Assembly: GCA_963556255.1 (NCBI GenBank)
Contig: OY744608.1
Coordinates: 5,577,448 to 5,641,447 of the forward strand
DNA length: 64,000 bases
Reading direction: 5' to 3'
From: Allolobophora icterica
Lineage: Eukaryota; Annelida; Clitellata; Crassiclitellata; Lumbricidae
Positions 416 to 59,519 of this stretch are shown piece by piece (within the stretch, counting starts at the first letter, position 1; every line of letters starts with the position of its first letter). Both the position numbers and the translations under genes were made by a program. Under the pieces are notes generated by a model. That model saw nothing but the letters and a program-made list of their open reading frames with translations, made no database searches and was not told the DNA's origin.

Positions 416-2297
416 CTTTCTGGTCCGCTGGATATCCAAATGTTGCAGCAGCTATTTCAACAACAGGAGCAACAGACGAAGCAACAGGTGGGTTGTCAGA
501 AATTGTTCAAACAGGCAGAGAAGGAATTAGTCAGTCAGTCAGTCAGTCAGTCAATCAATAAGTCATTCAGTTAGTCATTCAATCAGTAAGTCATGCAGTC
601 AGTTTTTCAATCAATCCGTCAATCATGCAATCAATAAGTCAGTCAATAAGTCAGTCAGTCAATCAATAAGTCATGCAGTCAATCAATAAGTCAGTCATTC
701 AGTCAATAAGTCATGCAGTCAGTAATTTGTTTAGAGATTTCTGCTCAACTTGTGCCTCGCTAGCCAACTCCACCATAATGAGTACACTGACCATACTCTT
801 TAGGTGGGAAGATGAGACGGTAAAGGGAGAGGACTAGCCATTCTCCCTCATATGCCGAGACTAAGAAAATTAGGTTGCTAACACTTCATACCCATGGCTT
901 CCTCTCCGGTTAAGAGACTGCTTTTCTTTACTTTTCTACACAATTATTGTTTACTACAAACGATGTTTACATTTGTTTGCAAAAGGAAGTGCAATTTCTT
1001 TGTCTTGTAGTTGATTCTCTTGGCACAGAAGCAACAGCAGTTGCAAATAGCATCACAAATTCAGCAGCAACATCAACAACAGACCGAGGCAACCGTTGCA
1101 TCGCAGAAACAACCAAAAGCTTTGTCTTCTGCAATCGTTGCTCCTCTGACCAATGCCCTTTCACCGCTCCAGGGGACTCAGACCCAACCCCTTATCATTC
1201 CCCTCATGCAGTCGCCCGTCGTCAGTGGAGGCACGTCGACGACCCCAACGCCCCAGGTTCTCTTCTTCAACTCGGTCGCACTGCAGCCGCAGTTCCTGCT
1301 TCAGGCTGGACAGGTCAGTTTGGGTCAACTATGTCCAGGTGTAAGAGGAAGACTTGTATAGCACCTGATGGTGGGAATGGGTTAGGGAAAATGGGTGTAG
1401 ATGTGACATTCTTGCAGCACTTTTGAATATTCACATACATGCATACACCTATGCATACATACATACATACATACATACATACATGTACATACATAATATG
1501 CATGCACAAATACATACACACACACGCATGCATGCATGCATACATACATACATACATACATATACATACTTAAATAGATACATGCATACACTTACATACA
1601 TTCATACATGCATATACAAACATACATGTATGGACACATGCATGCATGCCTATGTACATAAATACATGCATATGTACACACATATGCTTGCTTACATGCA
1701 TACATACAGGTTGAGATAGAGGGATCTTTTGTTAAATGATTGGTTGACTAACTAGAAGATTGATTGATTGAGCTATCAATGGATTTATTTATTGATGATT
1801 GATTGATTGAGTGACTGTTGAATGCTACACTTGCAGCCTCTCGATCAATCACAATAAACTGACAGTTGTGCTAACAGCTGACATTGTAAAGCATCCTAGA
1901 AGTAGCGAGCTGACGATACTATTGAAATTATTGTAATTGAGGACATAGCTTGTAGCATGGAAGAACAATGAACGAATATGCTTACACAGAACTGATGAAT
2001 GAAAATCTGATTGAGATGCTGAACTATGTTCCTATTGTTCTGTGCATCTTCAGTTGGTTCAAAGCATGCCATCTGCAGTCCTTGGTGCCAACAATGGTCA
2101 GACGATCATCCTCAATGCAGAGACTTTTGGCAAGACGCTTCAGCAGCAGCAGCAGCAGCAGCAACAACAACAGCAGACAAAGGAGATGCCTTCAATCGCC
2201 GATTCCCTGGTTACGGCCACTTCCTCCCTGCTCCAGGCCACGGAAGCCGGTCTTACCTACAACAAGAGCAACCATCCAGAGGTATTGATTCCGTCAG

Positions 2298-2336
<39 letters not shown>

Positions 2337-5300: not shown

Positions 5301-5950
5301 ACGACTTCAGCCAAACAACAATCTCACGTTTTGAGGCATTGAACCTCAGCTTCAAGAACATGTGCAAGCTCAAACCAATGCTTCAGAAATGGCTCGACGA
5401 TGCCGACACGCTGTCAATGGCTCCGCCACTGCTCTCTGACAGCCAGGACCCGTCGGACTTGGTGTCGCGCCGTCGCAAGAAGCGCACGAGCATCGACACG
5501 TCGATCCGCGTCGCGCTCGAGAAACTCTTCCTCACAAACTCGAAGCCGACGTCGGAGGAGATCGCCGACTATGCCAACCGGCTCCAGATGGAAAAGGAAG
5601 TGGTACGCGTCTGGTTCTGTAACCGACGCCAGAAGGAGAAGCGCATCAATCCTCCGTCGAGTTCCGTGAACCTCGGAAACTCTCCGCTTGTCATCTCCGT
5701 CGAAGCAGCCGGAACGTCGACATCGGCTGCCGTTTCCTCGGTTGGCGATGCTTCTCAGGCGACTGTAGCTTTCGTGTCGGTTGGCGGTACGGTCGGCAGG
5801 TCGCTGCCAGGGGTCGTGTTGCCGACGGTTACGTCGACTTCGGTGATGTCTGACAATACGAATCGACTGACTATGTTCAGTAACAGTGCGCTGCAGCAGG
5901 CGATATTCACGTTGAGCGGATCGCAGTTGACTGTGCCTGCTTCAATGTAG
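416..5950 (+). CDS. Pou2f: POU class 2 (Oct-1/Oct-2-like) homeodomain transcription factor, 3' part, five exons
   Basis: Exons 416-487, 1011-1313, 2054-2281, 3938-4010 and 5253-5950 all have AG/GT borders and compatible phases (0,0,0,1), giving 457 residues ending at TAG 5948. The gene is 5'-partial: exon 416 is preceded by TTTCAG and starts in frame, so earlier exons lie upstream of the window. Residues 1-201 are Gln-rich and resemble an Oct-type activation region, including a CAG/CAA run in exon 3. The POU-specific domain covers about 202-277 ([19 protein letters not shown], then [14 protein letters not shown] and [20 protein letters not shown]). A linker of about 20 residues follows, then the homeodomain at 298-357, with RRRKKRTS at its start and [13 protein letters not shown] in helix 3, including the POU-type Cys. 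The C-terminal 100 residues are Ser/Thr/Val-rich. The family binds the octamer ATGCAAAT in the nucleus. The sequence clearly indicates class 2, but the vertebrate paralogue number cannot be assigned. Confidence 0.95.
527..725. repeat. AGTC/AATC tetranucleotide-rich minisatellite
   Basis: An irregular tandem array of CAGT, CAAT and AAGT tetramers in a POU2F intron, just 3' of the first visible exon. Part is read by a spurious Ser/Val/Gln ORF. Confidence 0.85.
728..930 (+). mobile_element. SINE family B copy (body part)
   Basis: Contains 'gagatttctgct', 'aatgagtacac', 'gggaagatgaga' and 'gctaacacttcatacccat'. The same ordered modules recur at 4050-4180, 38815-38960 (- strand), 50310-50430 and 56615-56790. 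Only the 56.6 kb copy keeps a clear tRNA-like head. Confidence 0.6.
1431..1712. repeat. (CATA)n/(CATG)n-rich simple repeat
   Basis: A degenerate ATAC/ATGC tetranucleotide array in the POU2F intron following exon 1011-1313. Its Tyr/Met/His/Cys-rich ORFs on both strands are repeat translations, not genes. Confidence 0.9.
2300..2456. repeat. (TTA)n and (TTG)n microsatellites
   Basis: A TTA run at about 2302-2350 and a TTG run at about 2427-2453 flank 70 bp of unique sequence, just inside the donor of the exon ending at 2281. Confidence 0.9.
2457..2640 (-). mobile_element. tRNA-headed SINE family A copy, minus orientation
   Basis: The + strand reads tail first: 'catttattaggtgccactat', 'gatggtcctgtgcaat', 'gaaggacttgctcaagg', 'cagaggaggcttgaacc', ending in a tRNA-like segment. 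The same order recurs at 12665-12835, 16675-16825, 34230-34425 and 44135-44285. The adjacent TTA run is the element's simple-repeat tail. Confidence 0.65.
2880..2965 (+). repeat. Copy of the dispersed CTGGATAAAGGAGGAGGG family
   Basis: Carries 'tgccagtcaaaagcctgg', 'ataaaggaggagggc' and 'atgacacagtgtc'. The same modules recur many times, chiefly at 61-64 kb. Confidence 0.6.
3022..3255. repeat. 20-bp minisatellite, about 11 copies
   Basis: The unit reads as 'tgacataccttgtgctggtg', with only the third base of the unit varying (gacata, gatata, gagata). The unit is not a multiple of three, so all three - strand frames stay open and give repeated 'His-Thr-Ser-Thr-Arg' peptides. It lies in a POU2F intron. 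Confidence 0.95.
3320..3895 (+). mobile_element. CR1/L2-type LINE 3' fragment, frameshifted
   Basis: Translation in two frames gives the usual C-terminal reverse transcriptase tail of L2/CR1 elements: '[20 protein letters not shown]', '[11 protein letters not shown]', '[17 protein letters not shown]', 'ASAPSYL', '[14 protein letters not shown]' and 'RRRLKTFLF'. A frameshift near 3470 splits it. The end reads 'gtggcgctatataag' followed by a repeated 'ttcggttacaa' tail, as expected of a LINE 3' end. It is severely 5'-truncated and in the sense orientation of the POU2F intron. Confidence 0.85.
4050..4185 (+). mobile_element. SINE family B copy
   Basis: Shares 'gggagaggactggcc', 'cctcatatgctatgacta' and 'gctaacacttcatacccatg' with the copies at 790-920 and 38815-38960. 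Confidence 0.55.
4258..4490 (+). repeat. Dispersed repeat family C copy
   Basis: The module series 'ttggccctgtgctgaagta', 'gcgttattt', 'aacaacgacac' and 'ggggattggtcacca' recurs at 9520-9780 and 37540-37920. I found no terminal repeats. Confidence 0.5.
4668..4812 (+). mobile_element. SINE, interrupted by a hAT-like MITE
   Basis: A tRNA-like segment ('agctggttaaggcacttggt') is followed by the family A body ('agggaccttgagcaagtcct' and 'gctcagcacc'). The element resumes at 5082 after the inserted MITE. Confidence 0.55.
4813..5081. mobile_element. hAT-like MITE with 8-bp target duplication
   Basis: The termini CAGGGGCGCCCGCAG and CTGCGGGCGCCCCAG are inverted repeats with one mismatch. Both sides are flanked by CTCAGCAC (4805-4812 and 5082-5089). 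The 269-bp length, the TIR start and the 8-bp duplication fit a non-autonomous hAT element. It sits inside a SINE in the POU2F intron before the last exon. Confidence 0.85.
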
Positions 5951-13300: not shown

Positions 13301-16300
13301 AGTGGACATGCAACCTGGTGTCAACTCAGCTTTCTGTGGTCAGTGTGGATGAGGAGCCGTAAAAGTTAGGAGTTTGTCCGTTTGTTTGTGTTTTTGATTT
13401 TGCAACTATTCTTTGATCTCACTACCGTATTTTCGCGGATATAACACGCACTCGTATATAACACGCACACGAATATAACCCGCTACTTTTAAGGGTTTGT
13501 GTAAAAATAAAATTATATATCACGCACCCGATTATAAGACGCACGTATTTTCAGGAGTCCACCAATGAAGTAACGGACGAAAATGTCCGAAAACGTCTAA
13601 CGTTAGTGCTACTTAACGGTTAACCTAATAAAATTTCTAATCGAATATAGTCATAACTGTTTCTATTAGACGCAAATAAAAATCATTTATTTGATAAAAA
13701 TTCCTTTTGCAAAGAAAGTGAAGAATCGTGAAAAAAGCGAACATTTCAATCAAGTTTTCTATCTAAATTTTCTGTACACATTTAAATCCTGTATTCGAAA
13801 ATTACCTTGTTACTAATTCTTTACTGGAATCTTCACAAGGTAAGGTCTCCCCTGTCGGAAAACATATAGCGCTATAGTAACTTTGAACGGATTAACCCGT
13901 AAACGACGCGCGTGCACTATACTGTAGTAGCTGTGTAGCCTACTATTGTAATAATGTCTGGTGACCTATCAAAAGCATATTTTTTAAACTTTGCGTCATA
14001 TAGGCCAAGATAATATAGTTGACTACAGAAATAAGTGGAAGATATGTTTAGAATGGGAACCCAAATACGTAATTCAACCAATGAAAACGGGCATCTAAAC
14101 ATATGTACTAACGCGTCCACTAGCCGTATAATATTTGAATAACGTTCGTTGACCTACCAAAAGCGTTATATTTTCAAAACTTTACGTCAAATAGGCCAAG
14201 ATAATATTACAGAGGAATCAAATTGTTGGAGGTCGTACTCAAGGTGTATGAAAAGATCATTGAGAGGCGTATCAGAGAGCGGGTTGAGCTACATGACAAC
14301 CAGTTTGGCTTCAGGCCAGGGAGGGGTACAACAGATGCAGTGTTCATACTGAGACAGGTACAGGAAAAGGTTTTAGAAGGAAACAACAAAAGATACTGGA
14401 CCTTCGTGGATATGGAAAAAGCTTTTGATAGAGTTCCAAGGGATGTCGTTTACTGGAGTTTGAGGAAGAAGGGAGTCTCGGAGGTAATTGTGCGCTTGGT
14501 AAAGTCAATGTATGAAGGTGCAAGAACAACAGTGAGGAGCAGTATAGGCAACACAGGAGAATTCGAGATACGAGTGGGTGTACATCAAGGATCGTGCCTG
14601 AGTCCTCTACTGTTTATTATTGTGATGGATGCAATATCAGAACATGTAAGGAGAGAGGTACCTTGGGACATGCTGTATGCGGATGATCTTATACTGGCGG
14701 ACGATGCAGAGGCGAAGATGCAAGCACGTTTTACAGACTGGCAGATGGCAGTGGAGAGCAAGGGTCTTAAGATAAACATCAATAAAACAGAAACCATGGT
14801 CTGCTCAAAAACAACGGAAGCAATTGAGATCAGAGACATTGCAGGAAAGTCACTGAAACAGGTTGAAACATTTAAATATCTGGGATCGACCATGAATGCA
14901 CAGGGTGGCTGCGAGCATGACATCAGGAACAGGATTAAGGTGGCTTGGCAGAAATGGAGAGAACTAACGGGAGTGTTGTGTGACGCCAAAATGCCAACTC
15001 AACTCAAGGGAAAGGTATACAAAACAATGGTAAGACCGGTGATGCTATATGGAGCAGAGGCCTGGGCGCTGACAAAAAGGGATGAAGGGTTACTGGAGAG
15101 AACAGAGATGAGAATGCTACGATGGATACTTGGGATCTCACTGAAGGACAGGAAAAGAAATGTGGACATCAGAAAGAAGCTCGGGGTGGCATGTATAACT
15201 GACAAAGTACGAGAGACCAGGCTGAGGTGGTATGGACATGTAATGAGAAAAGAGGATGATAGTTGTGTGAAAAGAATCATGAATGCAGAGGTATACGGAC
15301 GCCGCAGCCGGGGACGACAGAGGAAGAGATGGGAAGACACGATACAACAAGACCTAAAACTCCTAAAACTGAAGAAAGAAGATGCTCAAGAAAGAAACAA
15401 GTGGAAGAGAAGGATCCGAGTGGCTGACCCCTCTCCAAAGAGGGATTAATTCGAGCCTGAAGGAAAAGAAGAAGAAGAAGAGGCCAAGATAATATAATTA
15501 AGCACAGAAATAAGTGGGATATTTTTAGAATGGGAACGTAAATACGTAATTCAACCAATAAAAATGGACTTGAATCTGTTGCGTATTTGAATGACCCAAG
15601 ATGGCGGATAGGACTTGCGGATTCTGGGATGAAATAAACTTGCTGTTTGCTTGAGAAATTAGGTCCAAATGATGACAGTTTTGATGAATCTGACAATGAA
15701 AAACTGTCATGTATCAAATGAAGAAAATAAAGTGGCTTTGGCAAAGGAAATCCCGACTTTGACACGAGTTTACATGCGTACGTGGTCCGAACGCGTGAAG
15801 TGGGATGAAAAATATCGGGTGACCTGGTCTTACTAAAAAAAATTGTAACTTCTTCATTTATTAAAGTATTTTCAAAATTTCTGTTTTATCCTGTCTGGCG
15901 CTTGTCAAGCTGACTGTTCTATTTTGATAATACCCGGTAATAATAAACGAATGATGTCGGACTTCATGTTTTAACGATTTCGAGGACATCAATTGTACAG
16001 AGTTTGTGTAATATTAAATTTATATAACACGCCCACGAATATACCACGCATCTAGGGTGCGTCGTTTGTAAAACTTTGTATAACCCGCGGGTTATATTCG
16101 CGAAAATACGGTATATAACTTGACTTCCATAAAGGTATCTTATGTAATTGTCTAATCTCTTCCCTGGTGTGGAGGTGCCTGAAAAGTTGTGTGAACAGAA
16201 AATGTTTGTGAATTAATTCTGTTTATGTTTATGACTCAGCTATTGGAAATCGTGATTTGATTTATGGCAGCAATTTGATTTGATTTTGATTTGTTAAAGC

Positions 16301-20104: not shown

Positions 20105-21987
20105 TTAGGCAATCACACATCCAGTTCTCTTCTGTGTTGGATCTTCTCGCTGTGGATCATCCTGTGTACTCAGTGGTACCCGGGTCGCACTGAACAAGAT
20201 GAACAGTTCTCGTTCCTCCGCGCGCTTTGACCTTTCCGATCTCTTGTGACTTTTGCGTGTTGAAGAATTGCTGCACTCCTTGTCGTCGCTGTTTGGTTGG
20301 TCATTAGAAATCGTGATGCCAGATGTGGACTTTTGGTGGCTGTGTGTGGTTGGAGTGATATCATCGTCTTCTTCGCAGTCGCTAAGGGAGTGGTCTTCCT
20401 GCTCAAAGTGGCGCCCCGGTTCGTCACCCTTCACCTGGATGCCCTCGCGCATTTCCAGAATGTTTCCCAGCCCTGGAGTAGATAAGCGATGCCAGTGGAA
20501 CAAAGTCAGAGATCCTGTAACATGTCAAGCAATCAGACTTTCAGTCCATCTGTCAGCAATCATACGGTCCTATAAATAGTGATCAACCTTACAAACAGGA
20601 GACAACTGGAATTCTTGAAGAAACTGCTTTTGTGCAAATGCTACTTTCAATATACAACAATTTAGGTAACAATGATGCAACTGCTGACATTGCAACACCG
20701 ATACTTTCAATAAACGTTCTCCAGCGGGGTCAAATTTATTAAGTAAATGTAGTCAAAGATTAGTTTTTAATAAATTACTTTACCTAGATTAGTACAGTGT
20801 GAGTTTAGCACAAGGTTGCATTATAGTGGTTCAACATTATGTAATGTAATATAAATATCTGAAATTTCTCAGCACCACACAAACGCGGTGTCATTGGGAC
20901 CAACTGATTTGCTGGTACTTATCCAATCAAGTTCACAAAAGCTAGGTCACTGGGACACTTTTGGTGCCAGATCAGAATCTGGTTCTAACCAGAGAGTAGA
21001 AAGAGCAGTACCGAGGTGGACTGTAATTAAAATTCAAGTAGGATTAGGATCAGAGCAGCACCACAGACCTTCCAAAGGCTTCACCAGCTGTAGTTTCTCA
21101 GACTGATGACTCGAGTAACTGGAAAAACCGCTGGTTGTACTTCGCGGAGTTTGGCATCCATCTGATATGCAGTCGTCATCCAACCTAGAAAAACAGAACA
21201 AAAGCCTCGTCTGGAGTTTAACTCCGAGTGTAGGCACAAGACAAAGATAAATTTATCTATTTACATCACTAGCAGTTGTTTCCAAACATTTTTTGCCCCA
21301 GTAATAACCATTTATTCGTACTCATTGCTGCCAAATAGGTGGCATCAGGAACTGATGATGATGATGAATAACTTCGGGACTGTGACCCATCAAGTCAGCA
21401 TTTTTATTCTAAATAAAGCAAAAATGAAATGTCTTCAGATTGTTATTACACATCCATCCCCTGGGTGCTTAACATCGTATGGTTAATACAAATGAAACAA
21501 TAAATAATAAATTGAGATGTCATGAATCAACAAACCAGCAGTGTCACTCTATGAACTTTCAAATTACAGCACTTGCAATAAACGTCTATTTACTATTTCA
21601 ACACTTTAACGACTAGTGTCTAAAAGCGACTGGGAAACCAATGCAGCTCATTGTTAACGTGTTAAACTATTGTTATACATATGCTTACAATCTAATTAAA
21701 TCTAATGACTTCTATAGCGCCCTAATCATAATCTCCAAGACATCATTTAATGGTAGTGCACAGTGGCAGAACTTGGATAATGAACAGCAACATCTACAGA
21801 ACACAGTCTCATTAAAACGTGATCTCCTTACAATGTGCCACCTGAAGTGGCTCCCAAAGCATCACAAGTGGTTCCAGAGAAGTTCTCTACAGGCAAAATA
21901 ACTCGTTCCTCTTAAAGTTTCCTTATGAGAAATCTCACAGTTACATCATCAATGACAGAGCAGTTTGAACGTAATGCTTAAGTGTAC

Positions 21988-22024
<37 letters not shown>

Positions 22025-25000
22025 GACAATTTATATGGCGCCGTAACGTGGCCATGCCGCTACAAGGGCGCCTACTAACCTTGATTCATTCTCATCGTCC
22101 TCATCCGGCCACAGTTCCTCCAGCTGGCCAGTCTGTAGTGGGGACAAGTGGACCTTGTATCCAAGGGCAAATTCAAGGTCAAGTGAACCTGGTCTCCCAG
22201 GGCAACCAAGAGGTACAAATCTGGAAGAAAACATGGAAAAAGGATTACGATTATTATTACTGTTATTATTATTTATTATAATGGTTATTAAATTTTATAA
22301 TGTGCAGTCACACATTGCATATCTAAAGTAAAAGAACTAAAGACAAGCTAGAAGCTGAAACAAGATACTTCACTTCAGGGTAGGGTAGAACAAGAAACAC
22401 GTGTTGTAGGGTCATGGAGAAGGATGTGTCACCTCAGAGTTTCTGACTTTATACAGCAGAAACAGAGATCACGGCAAAAGGCATGGCATCATATCACGTA
22501 CAAGTCGCCCTCTATTTTTTCTACCTCCGCTCTGTACTGCTTGCCCTTTATCCGGGGGCATTTCATACAAGACTCCTGAACCTCTATCCTATCCTGTTTC
22601 CAGTCTTGCACTATCCTATGACCACCAGAATTGTTTCACCGTACCAATGTCGTCTGCCATGGCTTGATTCCCCTAATTCTCTGACATGGCACTTAAACCA
22701 ACCCAACAACATGGCTCTTGTGGACTGAGCGGACAAGGTGCCAGTGAATAAGTCGGTGTTTCTGATGCAGCACCGAGAAATATTGAAGATTTACATTTAC
22801 ACATAACAAGTCTCAGCTCAGACATGCAAGCCACTGTATGAAGAAGAAAACCAACTGGTCAAGGGACATTCTGGCCTTTCTTAAATCGCTCCCTTTTAGA
22901 TCTGCTAGACATGCCACATTCAGCACCCTTGTGAGGTTCTTAACAGGTGATATAGTAAGTGTCTGCAGACATACACACATATATGCATATGTACATACAT
23001 ACATACATACATAACATAACATAACATAATTCTTTATTGTATCTCATCATAAATTGAACAAGACAGAGAATAGCAAATATACACAAAACACAAATGATGA
23101 TTGAATTTAACCAAAAAAAATTATAAAAAAGGAACATGCCTACATACATATGTGCATGCATACATACACACATAGGTACTTGCATGCATACATACATACA
23201 TGCACGCACAAATATATACAAGAAGAAGAAATGATGTATAACATACATGTTTTGTGGAAGAGTGTCATCGTTGACATGGTCCGGAGTGATATCTGCATCA
23301 GTCTCGGCTTTTTCCGAGTTCGTTGAACCAAGATGCAGATCCGAAGATATGCTGGAATTTCTGTTGAGGTTGTAGAAGAGCGTGTAACCTTCGGAGACAC
23401 CACGGCGACGACCACCATGAGCCAAGCTCACCAGATGGATCATGTTCAAGACACGACGTTTCTCATCTCTGTACAAGTTTTGCAACAGCAATCATACACC
23501 ATGCACCAAATTACAGCGCTCCTGAATAAGATTTAAACTGGTCTATCTGGCTATAAAACCCTTGCAACAAGCACTCCTAACTACCTTCAACCACTGGTTT
23601 CTCAGTACACCTCTCCCTGCAGTCTGCGGTCTTCGGTTATGGGTCTTTTGGTTGAGCCTAGATGTAGCACTGTCGTGGGCTTTCGTGCATAATGTGCATT
23701 CCATTTTACTGCCAAAGGTAGGAATCAACTACCAATGTTAATCTGTTGCTCGAACTCCTTTTCTTCTTTCAAGAAACACCTCAAAACTCAATACTTCTCT
23801 TTGGCCTTCAAACATCTGGATATCTAATTGCTCTTCACCTGGAGCCTCAGATTTGCATTTCCATGTGATTTTGCATGAGTTAATTATGTTTGTAATAATA
23901 ATAATAATAACAATAATAAACTCGTCATAACGTGCAACATTGCATGAATTCTCATACAATACAGGCGAGGAGCAAATTCTGAAATCATAACTCGATGAAT
24001 TCCACACACTTGCTGTTAACTGAAGACAAGAACTGATGGATAAGCAAACTGGAAAACATGATATCTTATTTCTATTGAGACTTCATATAAGCCTCTCATT
24101 TGAGACTTTATAAAAGCATTTCCAGTTGAGATTTTATTTAAGCAACTCCATGTCAGACTTTATAAAAGCATCTTCATTTGAGACTGTATTTCCATTTGAG
24201 ACCATATAAAACATTTTACTTGAGACTTTATAAAAGAATTTTTATTTGAGACTTTATATAAGCATCCCCATTTCAGAATTAATAAAAGCATCTTCATTTG
24301 AAACTGTATAAAAGCATTTCCATTTCAGACTGTAAACAAACATTTCCAACTGAGACTTTATAAAAGCATTTCCATTTAAGACTTTATAAAAGCATCTTCA
24401 CTTGGTCCTCACCCAGGTTCCGAGTTTTACTTGAGACTTTATAAAAGAATTTTATAAAAGCATTTCCATTTAAGACTTTATAAAAGCATCTTCACTTGGT
24501 CCTCACCCAGGTTCCGAGTTTTACTTGAGACTTTATAAAAGAATTTTTATTTGAGACTTTATATAAGCATCTTCACTTGGTTCTCACCCAGGTTCCGAGT
24601 TTCAGAATTAATAAAAGCATCTTCATTTGAAACTGTATAAAAGCATTTCCATTTCAGACTGTAAACAAACATTTCCAACTGAGACTTTATAAAAGCATTT
24701 CCATTTAAGACTTTATAAAAGCATCTTCACTTGGTCCTCACCCAGGTTCCGAGTTTTACTTGAGACTTTATAAAAGAATTTTATAAAAGCATTTCCATTT
24801 AAGACTTTATAAAAGCATCTTCACTTGGTCCTCACCCAGGTTCCGAGTTTTACTTGAGACTTTATAAAAGAATTTTTATTTGAGACTTTATATAAGCATC
24901 TTCACTTGGTTCTCACCCAGGTTCCAAGTTTCAGAATTAATAAAAGCATCTTCATTTGAAACTGTATAAAAGCATTTCCATTTCAGACTGTAAACAAACA

Positions 25001-28000
25001 TTTCCAACTGAGACTTTATAAAAGCATTTCCATTTAAGACTTTATAAAAGCATCTTCACTTGGTCCTCACCCAGGTTCCGAGTTTTACTTGAGACTTTAT
25101 AAAAGAATTTTATAAAAGCATTTCCATTTAAGACTTTATAAAAGCATCTTCACTTGGTCCTCACCCAGGTTCCGAGTTTTACTTGAGACTTTATAAAAGA
25201 ATTTTTATTTGAGACTTTATATAAGCATCTTCACTTGGTTCTCACCCAGGTTCCGAGTTTCAGAATTAATAAAAGCATCTTCATTTGAAACTGTATAAAA
25301 GCATTTCCATTTCAGACTGTAAACAAACATTTCCAACTGAGACTTTATAAAAGCATTTCCATTTAAGACTTTATAAAAGCATCTTCACTTGGTCCTCACC
25401 CAGGTTCCGAGTTTTACTTGAGACTTTATAAAAGAATTTTTATTTGAGACTTTATATAAGCATCTTCACTTGGTTCTCACCCAGGTTCCAAGTTTCAGAA
25501 TTAATAAAAGCATCTTCATTTGAAACTGTATAAAAGCATTTCCATTTCACACTGTAAACAAACATTTCCAACTGAGACTTTATAAAAGCATTTCCATTTA
25601 AGACTTTATAAAAGCATCTTCACTTGGTCCTCACCCAGGTTCCGAGTTTTACTTGAGACTTTATAAAAGAATTTTTATTTGAGACTTTATATAAGCATCT
25701 TCACTTGGTTCTCACCCAGGTTCCGAGTTTCAGAATTAATAAAAGCATCTTCATTTGAAACTGTATAAAAGCATTTCCATTTCAGACTGTAAACAAACAT
25801 TTCCAACTGAGACTTTATAAAAGCATTTCCATTTAAGACTTTATAAAAGCATCTTCACTTGGTCCTCACCCAGGTTCCGAGTTTTACTTGAGACTTTATA
25901 AAAGAATTTTATAAAAGCATTTCCATTTAAGACTTTATAAAAGCATCTTCACTTGGTCCTCACCCAGGTTCCGAGTTTTACTTGAGACTTTATAAAAGAA
26001 TTTTTATTTGAGACTTTATATAAGCATCTTCACTTGGTTCTCACCCAGGTTCCGAGTTTCAGAATTAATAAAAGCATCTTCATTTGAAACTGTATAAAAG
26101 CATTTCCATTTCAGACTGTAAACAAACATTTCCAACTGAGACTTTATAAAAGCATTTCCATTTAAGACTTTATAAAAGCATCTTCACTTGGTCCTCACCC
26201 AGGTTCCGAGTTTTACTTGAGACTTTATAAAAGAATTTTATAAAAGCATTTCCATTTAAGACTTTATAAAAGCATCTTCACTTGGTCCTCACCCAGGTTC
26301 CGAGTTTTACTTGAGACTTTATAAAAGAATTTTTATTTGAGACTTTATATAAGCATCTTCACTTGGTTCTCACCCAGGTTCCAAGTTTCAGAATTAATAA
26401 AAGCATCTTCATTTGAAACTGTATAAAAGCATTTCCATTTCAGACTGTAAACAAACATTTCCAACTGAGACTTTATAAAAGCATTTCCATTTAAGACTTT
26501 ATAAAAGCATCTTCACTTGGTCCTCACCCAGGTTCCGAGTTTTACTTGAGACTTTATAAAAGAATTTTATAAAAGCATTTCCATTTAAGACTTTATAAAA
26601 GCATCTTCACTTGGTCCTCACCCAGGTTCCGAGTTTTACTTGAGACTTTATAAAAGAATTTTTATTTGAGACTTTATATAAGCATCTTCACTTGGTTCTC
26701 ACCCAGGTTCCGAGTTTCAGAATTAATAAAAGCATCTTCATTTGAAACTGTATAAAAGCATTTCCATTTCAGACTGTAAACAAACATTTCCAACTGAGAC
26801 TTTATAAAAGCATTTCCATTTAAGACTTTATAAAAGCATCTTCACTTGGTCCTCACCCAGGTTCCGAGTTTTACTTGAGACTTTATAAAAGAATTTTTAT
26901 TTGAGACTTTATATAAGCATCTTCACTTGGTTCTCACCCAGGTTCCAAGTTTCAGAATTAATAAAAGCATCTTCATTTGAAACTGTATAAAAGCATTTCC
27001 ATTTCACACTGTAAACAAACATTTCCAACTGAGACTTTATAAAAGCATTTCCATTTAAGACTTTATAAAAGCATCTTCACTTGGTCCTCACCCAGGTTCC
27101 GAGTTTTACTTGAGACTTAATAAAAGAATTTTATAAAAGCATTTCCATTTAAGACTTTATAAAAGCATCTTCACTTGGTCCTCACCCAGGTTACGAGTTT
27201 TACTTGAGACTTTATAAAAGAATTTTTATTTGAGACTTTATATAAGCATCTTCACTTGGTTCTCACCCAGGTTCCGAGTTTCAGAATTAATAAAAGCATC
27301 TTCATTTGAAACTGTATAAAAGCATTTCCATTTCAGACTGTAAACAAACATTTCCAACTGAGACTTTATAAAAGCATTTCCATTTAAGACTTTATAAAAG
27401 CATCTTCACTTGGTCCTCACCCAGGTTCCGAGTTTTACTTGAGACTTTATAAAAGAATTTTAAAAAAGCATTTCCATTTAAGACTTTATAAAAGCATCTT
27501 CACTTGGTCCTCACCCAGGTTCCGAGTTTTACTTGAGACTTTATAAAAGAATTTTTATTTGAGACTTTATATAAGCATCTTCACTTGGTTCTCACCCAGG
27601 TTCCGAGTTTCAGAATTAATAAAAGCATCTTCATTTGAAACTGTATAAAAGCATTTCCATTTCAGACTGTAAACAAACATTTCCAACTGAGACTTTATAA
27701 AAGCATTTCCATTTAAGACTTTATAAAAGCATCTTCACTTGGTCCTCACCCAGGTTCCGAGTTCTTCCGCTGCCTCAATCGCAAACGAATCGATTCCTCA
27801 ATTTCAGATGAGATGGACTGCCGTGCAACGTAAGGAGAGTTTGGCGTGCTCAAGTGGCGAAGGACTTTTGGCTTGTGCTCGTGACGTAGGGAAGCATTTT
27901 CCGCCTTCTGTTCTTCCAGTAACACACGGTACTCCTGATACAAGCACTCCATCTCTTTCAGCTGCAGTAGAAAGAATAACTCCATTCACCCAAGTTTTAA

Positions 28001-28398
28001 AAAGATTTACCATTCCTCTGGAAGCCAGAGCCATGGCCTGAAAATCAGTCATATGCTAAAACTGCTTGCGAGGGTCACAGCAGGTGATTGCTAGAGCTCT
28101 TGTCCTGTAATGTGATGAGCGTAGAGCTTAAGCTGGGGCAGTCACTGTTCGGGACCTTGAGCAATACATTCAATTACAACTGCTCGGCGCCCTTGAAGTG
28201 CTATTGTATCAAATGAACTTCCACCTGGCTTTCGGACTTTGACCAGACTTTTCCAATGGATGATGATTTTTGACTGTTACTTGAAGCGCCATCGACTAAT
28301 GAATTTCGATGGCTGGGTTAACTACTTGGAATAGCCTTACTCTACATCAGAATCTAGGAGAGTCACTGCACCAAGGCCACAGTTGCAAGAGCCAAAAC

Positions 28399-28431
<33 letters not shown>

Positions 28432-31400
28432 AAGACAGATAGACAGACAGAGATGGGAATATATTTAGAGTGAAATGCACAAACAGATCTCACCTTATGC
28501 TTGAGATCAACAATAGACAGATAGACAGACAGAGATAGGAATATATTTAGAGTGAAATGCACAAACAGATCTCACCTTACGCTTGAGATCAACAATAGAC
28601 AGATAGACAGACAGAGATGGGAATATATTTAGAGTGAAATGCACAAACAGATCTCACCTTACGCTTGAGATCAACAATAGACAGATAGACAGACAGAGAT
28701 GGGAATATATTTAGAGTGAAATGCACAAACAGATCTCACCTTACGCTTGAGATCAACAATAGACAGATAGACAGACAGAGATGGGAATATATTTACAGTG
28801 AAATGCACAAACAGATCTCACCTTACGCTTGAGATCAACAATAGACAGATAGACAGACAGAGATGGGAATATATTTAGAGTGAAATGCACAAACAGATCT
28901 CACCTTACGCTTGAGATCAACAATAGACAGATAGACAGACAGAGATGGGAATATATTTAGAGTGAAATGCACAAACAGATCTCACCTTACGCTTGAGATC
29001 AACAATAGACAGATAGACAGACAGAGATGGGAATATATTTAGAGTGAAATGCACAAACAGATCTCACCTTACGCTTGAGATCAACAATAGACAGATAGAC
29101 AGACAGAGATGGGAATATATTTAGAGTGAAATGCACAAACAGATCTCACCTTACGCTTGAGATCAACAATAGACAGATAGACAGACAGAGATGGGAATAT
29201 ATTTAGAGTGAAATGCACAAACAGATCTCACCTTACGCTTGAGATCAACAATAGACAGATAGACAGACAGAGATGGGAATATATTTAGAGTGAAATGCAC
29301 AAACAGATCTCACCTTACGCTTGAGATCAACAATAGACAGATAGACAGACAGAGATGGGAATATATTTAGAGTGAAATGCACAAACAGATCTCACCTTAC
29401 GCTTGAGATCAACAATAGACAGATAGACAGACACAGATGGGAATATATTTAGAGTGAAATGCACAAACAGATCTCACCTTACGCTTGAGATCAACAATAG
29501 ACAGATAGACAGACAGAGATGGGAATATATTTAGAGTGAAATGCACAAACAGATCTCACCTTACGCTTGAGATCAACAATAGACAGATAGACAGACAGAG
29601 ATGGGAATATATTTAGAGTGAAATGCACAAACAGATCTCACCTTACGCTTGAGATCAACAATTTCGTCTTTGCTCCTATGAAGGTGATTTACCAACTCTT
29701 CGTTCTCAACCATGCCCTAAAATATAAAATTACTTGCGATTTTAAAACTCAGCAGTCAGAAAATTATCACTGTTCAAATGATTCATTCATTCATTCACTC
29801 GAGTATTTATATAGCACCTCTTCAAGGGGGCTATTCAGAGGTGCTCCCGACTCCAGCACGGCCAAATTTCTCCCTTCCCGAATTAGATGTGGCTTAGCCA
29901 ACCTGGACATTTAACAATTCCCTCAAGCTATTTTCAAACATGAGGGATCATATGTACCTCGGGACTCAAAAAAATAATAACTACTCATAATGTAAATTCT
30001 GATATAAACTTACCATACTCAAGACAATAGAAGCAAACTGAAAACAATTACTTCGTTGTGGCAAATTTCCAGATGACAAATCCGCTGCTGCTGGTCATCG
30101 AATTCGTCTCGGAGTTCCAGAATTTCCTCCTCTTTCGATGCCAACTGGACTTCCAGCAACTGCAAGGATTTGAGCAACCCGTTCAGGTCAGCCACCTGTT
30201 GCTTCGACTCTTCCACTTCCTCTTCCAGTACCTTCTTATCAATTAACAATTCGGCCACTCTTGCCTCGAGTTCTGCATTCTCTGCCACCTTAGCATCAAG
30301 TTTCCGCATGAGTGCTTCTCCGTCGACGCAGATGCTGCTCCGCCGAAGAGGATCGGTCCTGTTGTAAAGTAACGTACAACGTACTGCAAGGAATCTAGAT
30401 TACAGGATTAGTAACTCACCAAAAAAATTGTATATTCGATTGCGTCCTTACCCACAGAATCTGATGTCGCCCCAATTCTATTTTTACTTCTGATATTAAG
30501 ACAACTACCAATATAATCCAATGTAAACTAATCTAATGGCTTCGTTATCATAATGTCCAAGACATCAGTTGAAAGTCACCTTCAACAAAATCTTAATAAA
30601 AATCTGAATCTATTGGAGAAGTCAACGAGAAACATAATAGCAACCGTTCCTTTGCTTTAGGTAAACATACTTTCTCTTTAGTGACATTGCATCACAGCAA
30701 AGATGATCTGCAACACCCTCTCCTTTATCCAGGCTTTGGACTGGCAATACCTGGACGGCCGTGCTCAATTTTATCGTTGAGGAAAATGTAGACAAAACGC
30801 TTACAGATACAAACACTACAGTAAATTGCAATTGTAATCATAAACTCCAAACTTCTAATGCACCACTTATGGTTAGAGTGCTCAGCTTGCAACACAGAGT
30901 GAAGGCCCAGGCCTCCACTCAGGCCGTCACCGTGTAAGGACTCGATCAAGTCCTACATTCACAATTACTCTGCACTCTGTTGTATGGTCATATGTGCACT
31001 TTTGAACTTTGGAAGGAAGGCAATATAAAATGCAAATCTATTGTATTGTATAACTATATTGCGTTGGAAGACAGTGGCTGAATGATTAGAGCATTCACCT
31101 TGCAACATGAAGATTATGGGTTCGAGCCTCCAACAACACAGAACTTCATTGTGTGGGGACCTACTGTAGAGCAAGTCCTTTATACACACAATTGCACTGC
31201 ACCATTGATTGACGCTTGGGTCATCTGTCAAGTCTATTGCCCCCTTAGTGTTAGTCCAAGTGGTGTTATGCCCTCATTTAGTGTTTACTTGGTGTGCCTT
31301 TGTTTCTTTTTCCTTCAAATCTTGCATACTGGATTTAACTGATACTGGTAAACTCAAACAGATTCTTGTGTATGTTTGACTTATCAATGAATAGTAACAT

Positions 31401-34400
31401 TTACATGAACTGTTTTGCGAGAGGCTCTTCCTTTATCCGATCTACTTCTTCATCCATTTCATTTCTGTGCCGGAGAATTCTTTGCAGATGAGTCCTTTCG
31501 TGTCTAAGCTTTGCAATCTGTAGAAAACAATTGGCAACTTCCTAGCACTGCTATGCAATGATACACGTGGAACAGGGGTTCCCAACCTGGGGTGCGAGAT
31601 GGTATTTCAGGGGGTTCGACAAAGAGGGAAAGTATGTTACCATTGTACTGAATTTTTTACTGTTTACAATTTTTTCGAATTGCTCAGTTTATATTTGCAT
31701 TTTATGCACTGAGTTAAAAGCTTATTTTTTAGTTCAATTTGTTCACCTGCAGTACTGTATGAGTGTATGTGGTTCAGTCTGTGGTTGCAAAAATAGAAAT
31801 TTGACTTATTCATCTTCAAATGTGATATTAATTTTGTAGGGGGCGCAAAACTTAATCAAACATTTCCTACAGGTGCAGGGCCTAAAAAGGTTGGGAACCT
31901 CTTACGTAGAATCGATTAATTGTAATGTTATGTAAGTAATAAATTGTAAATTGCAAATTTATATAGCGCCACTTCACGAGGAACAAATCAGAGGCACTCC
32001 AGGCTAACAGAACAAAACCACAATTGAACAGAATGGATTTCAAGTGCTGAGGAAAATGAGGCAGAGAGACCAAGAAGCGCAAGTCACAGTGACTGCTCTT
32101 CTATCTCAAGGTCTTGCTATTCTGACTTGGTGTAAAATCAGTTGTAATTTTAATCCAACATTTATAAAGCACCACTTCAAGAAAACACTCATCAGTGGCA
32201 CTCCTGATCCGAACCAAATTACTGAGAAATAATTAAATAATTTAATAATTAAAACGAATAATATATCTTTGCTCCGATCATTCATTCATTGTCCAACAAA
32301 ATACTATTTTTAAGGTTTTGACAATTATTAATTAAAAGTGAAGATCGTACCTGTTCTTGGGCCTCGGACAGCTGAGATTTGAGGCTTTTATTGTCCTGTA
32401 GCAGACTGTCGATGTAAGAGAGGCTGGTATGACCGAGTGCTTCCAGCATCTTCTCTTCAGATCTCTGTCAAATTAAGAATATAACATACCTCTTCACTCG
32501 CGCTTTTGACTGCACATTGGCAATGACTCGCAAATTAACTCCTTATAAACTTAAGTAAAGTAAGGAAAGACATGGGAACATAACGCCTAATTCTGTGTAG
32601 GTCACGAATGAAGAATATACGACGACTGTATGTAATATATGACGAATATACGACGACTTACAAATACTGTTTACATGGTCAGTGAGAGACATGGTAGGAT
32701 TGAAAACAACGGTTAAGTTACAAGTAGTATCTGCCAGCTCAACAATTGAGTCACCAAGTCTCAATGACCTAAGGCAATCAAAATTTTAAGTTGGCGTGGA
32801 ATCCACCATAGTAGAAATTCAGTCTTTAATGGGTTAAGGAGCAGTCCATTGGCAGCCATCCAACACTGTACCACATCAATGGCAGCACCGAGCAGACTTA
32901 TTGGTGGCCAAGCAATCCTGATACTGATAAGTTTGAAGCCGAGTACGAAATGACTAAAGCACTGAGCATATACACGGAGAGAATTCCAAAATTTTGGTCC
33001 AACAGCAAAAAAGCTTGTTCACTTAAGACAGTTATAGCCTTGGGTATGACTGAAGATAGGCAGTCAGATGACCTTTGTTGAATAAATGCCTTAAATAACT
33101 GCCTTACAAAAGATCATTTCATTTTCTTCCTCACCGTTGCAGCCGACACATCTAATCCGCAAGATGTTCGATGTTGAGGTGTACTCCACAATTTCTCTGG
33201 AAAAATTTACAAGTAACATTTAGGCTACTAGTCTAACAAATACAGTGCTCTCATAAACACAAGTCATGTATGTATGTATATGTGTATGTATCAGAGCACT
33301 TGTTTAGTGCTCTGATACATACATACATATGTATGTATAAACTTATGTCATTCTTCATCTTTGGTGCAATTGCCAATCGTGCCAATGCATTGGTTGAGTG
33401 CTAAAGGTCTGCGTGAGACTGCCAGTGGAGACCTTCTCCAGGACTTTTTTCAAGTATACAAGCATCATTTACATACAGACAGATCTGTCATTCTTTTCTA
33501 ACTCTAGCATCGGTCAAGATACCAAGATGTGCTTTCAAACGTGCCTCAGCACTTTAATGACGAGCTTGTACTCAAATGTATGGAAAACTAATCCCTCTTG
33601 TCGTTAAAAGGTTAGAAAACATTGCAGAAATACCTAGATACATAGACAAGCACTGATTGTAAGCAATCAGTAATAGCATTCACAGTAGTTATTACCAAGA
33701 ACTTCAGAAGTAATTCACGATTACATTACATTACAACAGAATACTCAGACACCGAATAGCACTGCACCAGTTCTTTAACCGACAATAAGTCATCATATTA
33801 TATTACAATAATACAATTACTTAAACAGTGCATTCCAGTACACAATTAACAACAAACGTCATTATAACCAATACATACAATTACTTAGTGAATGACAGGG
33901 AATAGTGCAGTAAACACCGGAAACTGCAATGCAAAAAGTATCTAATCTATCCAGGAGCGTCTACACCATAGAAACCTTGGAGCAAATGCTCCATTCAAGA
34001 AATGGGGGGAAAGATTTATCAGTGTGTGTGCCACCATTTTAGGGGGGGGACGGGGAGGGGGAAGAAGAGGGAAAAAGACGTTGCTCCAATGACTTAGGGG
34101 GGATAGACGCCCCTGAATCTATCCACAACTACTGGTATACAGAATTTATTTACAAAATCAGGCAATCAATCTGAATTTCATCTACAATACATTGCAAAGA
34201 ACTCTGAAATCCAATTACATACTGAATACCAGTTACTACCATTATTACAAATTTATCAAGAGCCACTATCTGTTGACTAAGAAGCATCAATCGATGGTGC
34301 TGAGCAATTGTCAGCAAAGGACTTACTCATGATCCCTATACAGTAACTGTCTCAGAGGAGGCTTGTAACCTGTAATCTCCGCGCTACTAGATGAGCACTC

Positions 34401-39400: not shown

Positions 39401-42400
39401 TGCACAACTTGTACAATACACCTCCTTGTGTCTGCATAAAAATGCGTGCATGACTGTGCCATGCATACCCATATAACACTCTCGCACACGTGCAACAGGA
39501 GAACGCATACCTTGCAATACCGACCTACTTTTGTCAGGATAAAAATGCACACTTGTCAATCCATAAATCATTCTGTAATTGACCAGAACGGCCAACTCAA
39601 GTACAGGACAAAATCCACGAAACCAGCTGAAGCTAGTCAGGCGAAGGATGAATTTTTTTTAACTGACGAGAAACACCTGTCCATTATCTATCTCTTTCAT
39701 CACTGTTTCTTTGTATCTTATATGAGGTGACAAATTATCAATTGCAAAACAAGGGCAAGGAATGGCAAGTTGACGTAAGGTGAGGTGCGGTGAGATAAGG
39801 AAGCTAATTTAAGGTAATTTATCAGGCAAGTTAAATTAGGGCAACAAGGGGTAAAGTACAGAATGCAAGGTAAGATAAGGCAAAAAAATTAGATTACAGG
39901 AGGGTTAAGTAGGTTAAGGAAAGGCAAGGCAAAGCAGGTGAAAGTATCGTAAGGTAAGGTGGGGTTTGGTAAGTAATGTTACTTTATGACAAGGTAATGC
40001 AGGGTAATATTAAGCGTAGCTAAGGTAATGCAAGAGAGGGTAAGGTACAGTAAGGTAGGTAAAAGTATGATAAGGAAAGGTAAGTTAAGGTGAGCATTCA
40101 CATGTTATTCTATGCCCGATTAATTAACACAACAACCTGCATGGCTCTTTGATCTTTCTGCTGAATGCAGCCCTGACAACACAGAAGTTTCTATGGTAAC
40201 ATGTAAACAAAAGTGTCACCTTTACATTTACATACTTTACACATACCTTTATACACATCTTTATGCATACCTTTCTACACACCTTTACACATACATTTAT
40301 ACATCTCTGGGACATACACATAGGCATTTTAACAACTAATTTTTCCCTTTTTATTTCTGAGGATTTGTATACAGCCATATAAACTAGTGCATTACCCTTA
40401 AAGATTTTCTGCAGTCACCTGTGTCATTTCATGCTCCTCCTAAAGACTTGTCTGTTTAGGACTGCTAATATCACAGGCTATCTCTCGGTGTCAACAGACT
40501 GATCCTCTGGATGTTGACCTGATTAAGCCTAACCTTGGTGCGCTATCGGTTGAAAACTAGCGCATTAGACATAGAAATACTAACTAATAATAATAATAAT
40601 TCTGAGTATGCAAGCGCAAAAGTGTTTTACCATTTTAATGCTATGGTCATAGTTTCTGTGATTTTATGTCTTTATGCCACTGACTGCTAAGAGTAAGAAA
40701 CATACTAATCGTCTATCATCTGTGTAAACTTTTGTTTTGTGCTATGACCAAGATTATTCTGCAGTTTATGTCTTCGCGGCAGCTGTGACAAAGCACAGCT
40801 TTGCTATTGTCTAAACACTTTCTTCAAATTTATGAATTTTATATTTTTATTACCTCCAGCCGGGACCATATTGGCGTGTCTCAAGTGAGAACAGACACAC
40901 ACTTTTGGCTATCTAGGAAAACACTCGCGTTATCGTATCGTATATCCCCACAAAGCGCCAGACTTGCGAGAAAGTTTAAGGTTAAAGGTAAAGGTAGCGA
41001 CTTGTTTATGTACCACTACAAATACTCCTCAGGTGTGTAAAGGTAAAGCACACTTACAATGTAAACATTTTTCTAAAGGGACCATTATGGTCTCGACCCT
41101 GCTCAGTTTTCAGTGAACTGATCGGGTGGGATCCTTTACAGTAGCGCTTTAGAAATTCTGAGTTTACAATTACTATTGTGATTATGATCCTTCACCATCG
41201 ATGCCCCTTTGAGAGGGTGCCACACCCTTTGAGGTTCAAGAACTTCAAGTGTATGGAAAATGGACCGTACTAGACCAAGATTCAACTGTCTGAAACAAAG
41301 CCAGCATTGGTTTACTCTATTGAGCTCCTTGGATGCTTACAGATGAAAGTTACGAAATAATAACATTGTTCACAGGCCTCTTATAGAAACAATTCAGAAC
41401 TGTACAGACGACAGGTGTGTTAGCAGACCTCTTTAGAAACTGCACAAGAGTAGAGATAAAGACACTTGTTAGCTCTCAGAAGCGCGGTCCCACGGTTGAT
41501 GAGTATCCAGGTATCTAATTACCATAACATCACAAGTAAGGAGTGATTTATAGTATCTCAAAAGCTACTGGTTAGGCCCTATAGATTGCCGCAATCTCTT
41601 TTTTCCGCAGTTAATACCAAACGATGCTGCCCTCTAATGAATACAGTGCAAGTTACATCAACATCAACATTATGTAGGTTAGCTAAAGTACATGACAATA
41701 TTTCCTAATACGCTTCACATATCCTAGATATGGCACCAGATATGGGCAAATATAAGGGACATATGATGTCCATATGGAAAAATTGTTAGTGTGGGTTTCA
41801 AATGTCTATATACCTAGGGCGCTGATCCCTCTCGTCTTTAAAGGCTTAAACATGGTTAGAGATTTCTTCTTGATAAAGAATGTATTTAACTGAATCATAA
41901 TCATGAATTTTGTAAAAATTACTTAAAAACTAAGTGCAGGGCCCCAGCTTATTTGCGAGCACTGCATCAAGTCGGAGGCATTGTGTGAAGAACAAGATTC
42001 GGTAGCCTGGAGACTACCCAGTCTTGTTCTGCACTGAAGGAAATGGAGAAGTTTTCTTTAGGTGGAAAGGTATTTAAGTTGAAATAGGAATGTGGAAGAC
42101 TGGATGAAGTCAGGGTATGATTTGCTGAGGCTGCTTTACAAAGCAAGGTATCGAATACAGGGCTAAGGTCGACAACCATGGCCCTATTGTCATCAGATAT
42201 TGTCGCAAACACTGGATACTACATTTGAAAGTGAGGCTGGTAGTGGGAACAACTCAGAGTGACCAACAAGAGGTTCAACAAAACTGAATGACTAAATTTG
42301 ATCATTTACAAAAAACAACTCCAAGATGAAGAGTTGTATACTAATGCCAAATGCCAACTATGAAATGTTAGTATTCTAAAATTACCACTGCTAGCAATAC

Positions 42401-45400
42401 TAATGTAACCACTGCTAGCAATACTACTGCTACCATGGCTAGCAATACTAATGTAACCACTGCTAGCAATACTACTGTTACCATGGCTAGCAATACTAAT
42501 GTAACCACTGCTAGCAATACTAATGTTACCACTGCTAGCAATACTAATGTTACCACTGCTAGCAATACTAATGTTACCACTGCTAGCAATACTAATGGGT
42601 TACCACTGCTAGCAATACTAATGTTACCACTGCTAGCAATACTAATGGGTTACCACTGCTAGCAATACTAATGCTACCACTGCTAGCAATACCAATGTTA
42701 CCACTGCTAGCAAACTAATGTTACCACTGCTAGCAATACCAATGTTACCACTGCTAGCAATACTAATGTTACCGTTGTAGCATAACAGGTCAAAAGATCC
42801 TTTAGCTCCAGAACCACGGTGCATATCAGTAGCATGGTGGTAGAGTTTGTAGTGCACCTGTTCTATAATCCAACGATTATGAGTCTGAGCCTAGAGAATT
42901 GACTCCAAGTAACGACCTGGGGCAAATTGTTTACACACACCGGTCTCTATCACCAGGTAATAGAATTTTGTACCAACACTACCTGGCAAGTTATTATCAA
43001 ACCAATAAGCCTTACGATGTAGTGAGAACTTGTCCATGACCCTGCAGTTGACCTACATTGCAGGGTCAAAGGTCTAAATCCCAAGAGTCGAAATTATGCA
43101 TCGCCTAGTCATTCAACTATGGAATATCAGAAGTAAACGAACTTCTTGGGACTACTCCACTATAAAGACTATTGTCTACGAATCATGTAGTACAAAGCGC
43201 AGGACTACAACACATAATTACCTTAAAACCAGTGGGTAGATAATGTTAAGGTTGCCACTAACCTTTACTCGGCAGCCATTCACCTCTGGAAGGAAACCAA
43301 GCCTTACTAACATCAGAACAAGTCATTTTCAATAAATGTCCACCCTTGAAATCCGTCTATACGATCTGACGAGTCTAAAACAACACAGCAACATTGTGTA
43401 GACTCCTCCTCACTGTGAAACGATACCATCCCTATAATTCACAGTGAGGCAGGAACATTAATCCAATGTTCCATGGTGATGATTTCTCCTTAAAAACTAT
43501 GTGCTGTAATATTAACTGAAATACCATTTTGAATCGTAATTGTGATTGTAAAATCCAATTTTATAAAGCGCTACTCGAAAGCTAGGCACGGGCACTTGCT
43601 TATTTGCGAGCACAGAGTCATGTCAGAAGCGTTGTCCAGAGGTGGGCAACGGATGATCCGCGTCTGGTTACCAGAGAGGAGGAAGAAGAGGAGCTGCTAA
43701 GGTGGGTTTTGCTGAGGGTGAGAAGGTTTGGAAGGCAGAGGATTGGATGGATTAGGCTAGGAATTCTTGAAAGGTAAGACTTCAACTTGGAGTGGAAAGC
43801 CTGTGGGGGTGATAAGCAGATGAGCCCAGGGAAAACATTGCATAGAATACTGGATAGAATTTTTTACTGCGCATATACTTCTTCATGTGCGGAGTCAGGT
43901 GTAATTTCTCAAATGCACTTTAATGTTGCATAACTATTTCACCTCTATATTGCCTAACAAGAATAAAAAACCACCATGAATACCTTTACTCCTAAACAGT
44001 AACAGGCATTTCTTATAACAATGTCTTCATGCACCGAGCTATTCAACACAGATGCACTAACAAAATCCCCAGTCAACTGCTCTATATATGGTGTTCTCAG
44101 TCCTGAATAGGACTGACAACACCATCTCACAATACCAACAATACAATTGAGCATCAGTCAATAGTGCTGAGCAATAACACACTGTGAGTTAAGGACTTGC
44201 TCGAGGCAACTACAGAATAACTGTCTTGGAGAGGCTTGAACCCGCACTCTCTGCATTATAAGCCGAACACTCTTACCAACAGGTTAGTGGGTAGCAGTTA
44301 CAAGTCCGTAATTTGGCTCACAAAAACTTAGCTCAGCAAATAAACTGAATAGGACTGAGAACTGCCATTGACAAAGTTGAATAACAGATACGTGATTGTA
44401 ATCCAGAGGATTTTCAGTTTGTATTCGCTGTCAGAGATGGTTGTGGACTTTGTTCGGCCCTGGTCCACCTCTTATGCAAGGTTCTCTAAATAGAGACATC
44501 TATAAATGCATCCGAGTATTTATAGAGTGCCTTCTATGAAATTCGCATAGACACTGCAAATAGACTGTCAACGTCATAAGAATGTGACTTAAAGCAAGCT
44601 GAAATATGTCTCTTGATCTATTTGTTTTGGTGGAACATTGTATGTTTTTGGTGTTTCAGTGGAAGAGTGCTCAAGAGGACAGTCCTCTGCATGAGAAGGT
44701 TTGAAGTGTTTAACTACTACTGTACAGGAGAGTGAGATTAGCTGGTTCCCAAGGGCTGCAGAACAGAACAACGGTATGTGCCATGAAAAAAGAGAGCTCC
44801 TGAATAAGCCGGTGCCCTGTGCTTAGCTTTTAGGCAGAATTTAAGAAATTTTGAGATGATTATGATTCATTCTTGGACCCCAATGATGATCGAGGCTTGC
44901 CCAACAAAGAGACTCAACAATATAAGCAGTCTTAATTGGCAGCCATTACAGTGTGTCTTGCATTTGGTTCAAAACACACAACTTTGGCCAAGTTAACCAT
45001 GAATTTCCATGAATTATATGGCACAGATGAGAATGTATTAAAACTGATTTATCCCGTACTGTGGGAAATCTGCAATTACAGCACTACATCCATGGGCGTC
45101 CAGAGGGGGAAGGGGGCATTTGTCCCTTTGGATTTTGAAAATATTTTAAAAATTAAATCTTTTCATTATTATGATTATTACAACAGTCCCAACACGAGCT
45201 TCAATGCAAAAAAACTTAATTATTTAGGCAAAGTCCTTGACTATTATTTATTTTTAAAGTTGTCATGTGTTCTGTGTTCATTCTATGCAAAAACGTCATT
45301 TTGCTCCCATAAAAAATCCCCCCCCCCTAATTTTTTTTGCCCCAACAGAAATTCTTGCAGACGCCCATGACCACATCCAATGCATCATCATCCCTTGTAG

Positions 45401-58252: not shown

Positions 58253-59519
<1,267 letters not shown>

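Follow-up and report, generated by a model that had tools for sequence, protein, structure and literature searches.

What has given two adjacent introns of one gene tandem arrays whose every unit carries the end of the upstream exon together with its splice donor, and what would the additional donors do to the transcript? The question is raised by a locus within a window of 64,000 nucleotides, which is the whole stretch of DNA analysed. The two arrays are very probably separate donor-spanning minisatellites, or "mirages", that arose in one TRAK/milton gene by tandem duplication, then expanded and have been tolerated.

The gene carrying both arrays lies on the minus strand and is, judged by its predicted protein, of the TRAK/milton kind, a mitochondrial transport adaptor. 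TRAK/milton adaptors link mitochondria to kinesin. Its exons, in the order of transcription, are the following:

32351..32464, minus strand: exon Ea, probably of TRAK/milton (MLEALGHTSLSYIDSLLQDNKSLKSQLSEAQEQ) and included in the joined protein; open frame, splice sites placed by eye.
30052..30383, 5' limit approximate, minus strand: coding exon Ec, coiled-coil part; open frame with an in-frame join to Ed, HAP1_N match of the joined protein.
29642..29716, minus strand: exon Ed, 25 codons, phase 0 at its 3' end; aligned with P0001.
27750..27961, minus strand: exon Ee, phase 2 at its 3' end; aligned with P0001.
23247..23468, minus strand: exon Ef, acceptor TACAG/AGATGAG, carrying on the reading frame of Ee (codon split GG|A).
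22080..22220, minus strand: exon Eg, FVPLGCPGRPGSLDLEFAL; P0001 has a near-identical stretch.
21069..21184, minus strand: exon Eh, EKLQLVKPLE, within the Milton match of the joined protein; aligned with P0001.
20108..20514, minus strand: exon Ei, end of the coding sequence (TAA next); its final part was matched by eye to the C-terminal end of P0001.

The identity of the gene was initially our guess, made from the exon translations and the human TRAK1 sequence, and the Pfam test came afterwards. The joined protein of 521 aa, comprising Ec, Ed, Ee, Ef and further exons on either side, contains both domains of the TRAK/milton family, HAP1_N (39.9 bits, cut-off 33.9) and Milton (25.3, cut-off 22.3). 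A piece of 184 aa by itself stays under the HAP1_N cut-off (23.4 vs 33.9), which was passed once the longer protein model was tested after it, and Ed and Ee on their own have no Pfam match. The PDB sequence search gives three weak coiled-coil matches, the best at E 0.033. Among 7994 candidates scored in the protein search, two proteins lie at E ≤ 0.001. The first, P0001 (616 aa, from a 2436-base contig), has 44% identity over 89% of the query, and the second, P0002, is a Rhodnius milton protein with 40% identity over 21%. The searches for Rfam families (gathering threshold) and for tRNAs found none.

The exons that flank the arrays join as open frames, in phase 0 at 29642/27961 and in phase 2 at 27750/23468, and Ec, Ed, Ee and Ef (from 23468) make up one open frame when joined. 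The alignment with P0001 runs without a gap over both the Ed/Ee and the Ee/Ef junctions. P0001 is the protein of a relative, and it supports the exon limits while being silent on the choice of donor in this animal. The calls of Ed and Ee are sound on account of the in-frame joins, the HAP1_N and Milton cut-offs passed and the read-through of P0001, and the exons proposed earlier for this locus hold on the same grounds. The donor of Ec is GAA/GTAATT. A SINE-like stretch with tandem GAAT at its end, recognised by eye at 29775-29910 (minus strand), lies just upstream of Ed.

The introns after Ed and Ee hold the arrays and the simple repeats that adjoin them:

28433..29662, minus strand: array 1, 15 units of exactly 82 bp in register (TRF and unit alignment).
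28399..28451, minus strand: CTGT-type microsatellite at the distal edge of array 1, its probable seed (TRF period 4, junction comparison).
24271..27763, minus strand: array 2, in which A (154 bp), B (81 bp) and C (94 bp) units form a higher-order array with 31 donors TGG/GTGAGR.
24075..24404, minus strand: older, diverged 26-bp minisatellite that overlaps the distal end of array 2, its probable seed (TRF period 26, 72% matches).

Array 1 starts 21 bp inside exon Ed, with no break between exon and array, and occupies 1209 of the 1680 bases of its intron. Its unit consists of the 21 bp of exon end, the donor AAG/GTGAGA, and intron sequence that closes with a CTGT/CTAT tetramer tract. The donor is AAG/GTGAGA in 15/15 units, namely the real one at 29641 and 14 copies; 14 of the 15 are identical from -21 to +25, and the remaining one differs at -5. 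The mean pairwise identity of the units is 99.3%, with five distinct sequences among the 15.

Array 2 starts 14 bp inside exon Ee and occupies 3479 of the 4281 bases of its intron. Each unit has the last 14 exon bases and a donor, and the units follow one another in the order ABCABCABABCABCABCABABABCABCABCA, so that the periods of 329 and 235 bp given by the first-pass annotation represent A+B+C and A+B. The 31 donors comprise the real one at 27749 and 30 copies, all near-identical over about -14 to +17. Mean identities are 98.8% for A (12 units), 99.8% for B (11) and 99.5% for C (8). Most of the intronic part of the units is the 26-bp minisatellite, which by eye begins some 12 bp away from the donor. 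No exon sequence is seen in the older 26-bp repeat at 24075-24270.

This anatomy bears out most of what the first-pass annotation had described, that is, two arrays that abut their exons, with 21 and 14 exon bases and a donor in each unit. Its estimates of about 14 and about 30 decoy donors agree with the 14 and 30 copies counted beside the two real donors. The donor motif it gave for array 1 is found throughout, while that for array 2, TGG/GTGAGG, applies to only 20/31 donors, unit B having TGG/GTGAGA (11/31). Its claim that the array sequences are unrelated is also upheld, as blastn finds no match between them at E ≤ 1. Elsewhere in the window there is no match to either array's unit at E ≤ 1e-3. 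With no detectable sequence in common, the two arrays look independent in origin.

If placement is uniform, the chance that an array edge falls within the last 25 exon bases is roughly 25/(free intron bases + 50), or 0.048 for array 1 and 0.029 for array 2. The product is about 0.0014, a post hoc value uncorrected for the many introns of a genome. A scan of 16 borders of this gene, allowing up to 5 mismatches in 24 bases, finds multiplied borders at 2/7 donors and 0/9 acceptors.

The use of any copy donor would lead to a premature in-frame stop (44/44), whereas the frame stays open from each of the two first donors. In the first of these introns, all 14 copies lead to a stop after 22 added codons, within the exon piece of the second copy; in the second, TGA stands right at the border for all 30. 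The first-pass annotation had also suggested that multiplied donors might be useful, and for the protein this finds no support, since the frame closes before the next exon from all 14 + 30 copies. A longer protein is impossible from any of them, and the copies thus look tolerated rather than useful. The case for the extra donors being useful is weak; toleration of donor multiplication is plausible, with a good case behind it. The idea of a microexon or of recursive splicing in array 1 was set aside, given that the exon ends in array 2 read TGG, which provides no acceptor there.

Splicing presumably still proceeds from the first, exon-proximal donor in both introns. The copies equal the real donor in local sequence, which counts against their being ignored. 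Because the local sequence is the same, the first donor could be favoured only by farther features, for instance the remaining exon sequence or how far away the exon's acceptor lies. Favouring by these features is the idea of exon definition, which, we infer, favours the first donor here.

The proposed origin starts from what is directly seen, namely the anatomy, the exon calls, the stops on copy use and, at the distal flank of each array, its own simple repeat. Each array runs at its distal end into a simple repeat that also closes its unit, and the units abut the exons in register, which supports this origin. First, a stretch reaching from just within the exon to the intronic simple repeat would have been duplicated in tandem; its intronic end would lie in the CTGT tract for array 1 and in the 26-bp minisatellite for array 2. 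Unequal exchange or replication slippage would then have multiplied the unit, and in array 2 the 26-bp repeats would have given further rearrangement into A, B and C. The exon-proximal donor would have remained intact beside a whole exon, the mRNA would be unchanged if that donor is chosen, and the array would be tolerated. The order of events, the mechanism of exchange and the use of the first donor are what we infer from the anatomy. The near-identity of the units indicates that the expansions are recent or homogenised. Two details count against the proposed origin. The junction of array 1 has 0 bp in common with the exon source, and hence no microhomology (array 2 has 2 bp, AA), and the lowest A-to-A identity is 94.8%, from the final A copy, where the array passes into its flank.

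A broader view would make exon-intron borders, in this lineage and thus outside lancelets, mutational hot spots for tandem expansion from whose donors introns grow outward, and would have the spliceosome of such animals strongly enforce the exon-proximal donor among dozens of locally identical ones. It is offered tentatively and is rather doubtful.

Among the rival explanations, regulated poison splicing survives best, even if it is improbable. A tunable fraction of transcripts would take a copy donor and reach a stop, leading to decay or a truncated adaptor, and repeat number would set expression. It accords with the early stop from all 44 copies, and the nearest copy in array 1 would give an exon of 157 nt (75 + 82), a normal exon size. 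A title in the reference list of PMC2630376 ties the 31-bp VNTR of human CBS to reduced enzyme activity, and the junction VNTR of FAM20C is said to affect alternative splicing (PMC5941971). However, near-identity of units that follows from recent expansion makes the intact donors no sign of selection, and lancelet data suggest that splicing is undisturbed (PMC3087553).

That both arrays are assembly artefacts is very improbable. One lancelet mirage appears to be aberrantly assembled in a draft genome (PMC3087553), but the units here differ from one another by substitutions, follow an irregular ABC/AB order and are flanked on either side by clean, unique sequence. The position of both arrays on exon ends is also hardly expected of an artefact. 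U1 suppresses premature polyadenylation signals, and a role of the copies as a U1-binding platform against such signals within the AT-rich array 2, where AATAAA occurs 11 times on the sense strand (6.3 expected from base composition) alongside 30 copy donors, is barely credible, since array 1 has 14 copy donors without AATAAA, and AATAAA is also present in the flanking old repeat, so that signals and donors were probably merely copied.

Elsewhere in the window, a POU2F (Oct1-like) gene on the plus strand has an open frame at 5234-5950 that encodes the homeodomain and a portion of the POU-specific domain. Glutamine-rich open frames upstream of it (1011-1361 and 2015-2467, plus strand) may belong to the same gene. 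Besides the window's own protein P0123, the best matches of the POU2F piece have 96% (P0124), 66% and 60% identity, among the best 120 of 5015. The named matches among these 120 span many animal groups, including arthropods, molluscs, annelids, echinoderms and hemichordates, and Branchiostoma is absent from them. An open frame for reverse transcriptase at 14205-15449 (plus strand, 414 aa, RVT_1 E 1.4e-32) is part of a non-LTR element by eye. It has 79% identity to one protein, and among the best 120 of 1962 matches the best with a named organism is Petrolisthes (48%), with one Branchiostoma match at 39%. A lancelet host, an idea prompted by the mirages, was given up since the named matches among these best 120 for each of the two proteins include no close lancelet one; the host is probably a bilaterian of a thinly sampled lineage. 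The open frame at 58253-58534 (plus strand) is taken by us to resemble the start of an animal alpha-amylase. A 20-bp repeat of about 12 copies at 3019-3253 (minus strand) has donor-like sites AAG/GTATGT, GTATCT or GTATAT in its unit, and no exon was recognised upstream of or beside it. A 24-bp repeat of about 16 copies at 42382-42773 lies farther upstream than the TRAK exons recognised here, with no adjoining exon recognised.

The structure is of a known kind, represented in the literature by the lancelet mirages and the repeats of human CBS and FAM20C. Its tandem units have exon and intron sequence over a real border, and a splice signal is found in all of them (15 of 15 units in array 1, 31 of 31 in array 2). 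Lancelet mirages, of which Adh3, TnC and globin genes provide cases, occur at 5' and 3' borders alike; their units measure 10-72 bp in Adh3 and, in the globin genes, 150-160 bp (PMC3087553), and they are also treated in PMC3902484. They resemble the present arrays in having border-spanning tandem units, many with splice signals, and homogenised sequences (PMC3087553, PMC3902484). BflGb6 has 6 and 3 units in two haplotypes and BflGb9 has a duplicate (PMC3087553), whereas the present arrays have 15 and 31 copies, lie on adjacent donors of one gene and include the higher-order A/B/C structure. Unlike that of the mirages compared, the host here is probably not a lancelet. Adh3 data and the RT-PCR of the globin authors suggest regular splicing without interference (PMC3087553).

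The 31-bp VNTR of human CBS is designated c.1444_1467+7(16_21) (PMC2630376). Read here as the last 24 exon and first 7 intron bases in 16-21 copies, it multiplies a donor in the manner of array 1, which with 15 copies is no longer than the CBS VNTR in copy number. CBS differs in being a single vertebrate locus with a short unit. The FAM20C VNTR is likewise situated over an intron-exon junction. In potato RdRp, as in the present gene, a tandem duplication extends across an intron-exon boundary (PMC4974935). That was one duplication and made a new intron, whereas the present arrays lengthened introns already in place, with no sign of a new exon. Avian GC-rich genes were rejected as a precedent.

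The novel aspects are the gene, a host that is probably no lancelet, the arrays on two adjacent donors and the higher-order structure; the 31 donors of array 2 also exceed the copy numbers of the published cases compared. The locus represents a natural experiment on donor choice, as its donors differ mainly in position, and RNA would show the weight of exon definition against local donor sequence. Mirages, the locus suggests, extend beyond lancelets, and a single gene shows how introns can lengthen through copies of their own borders.
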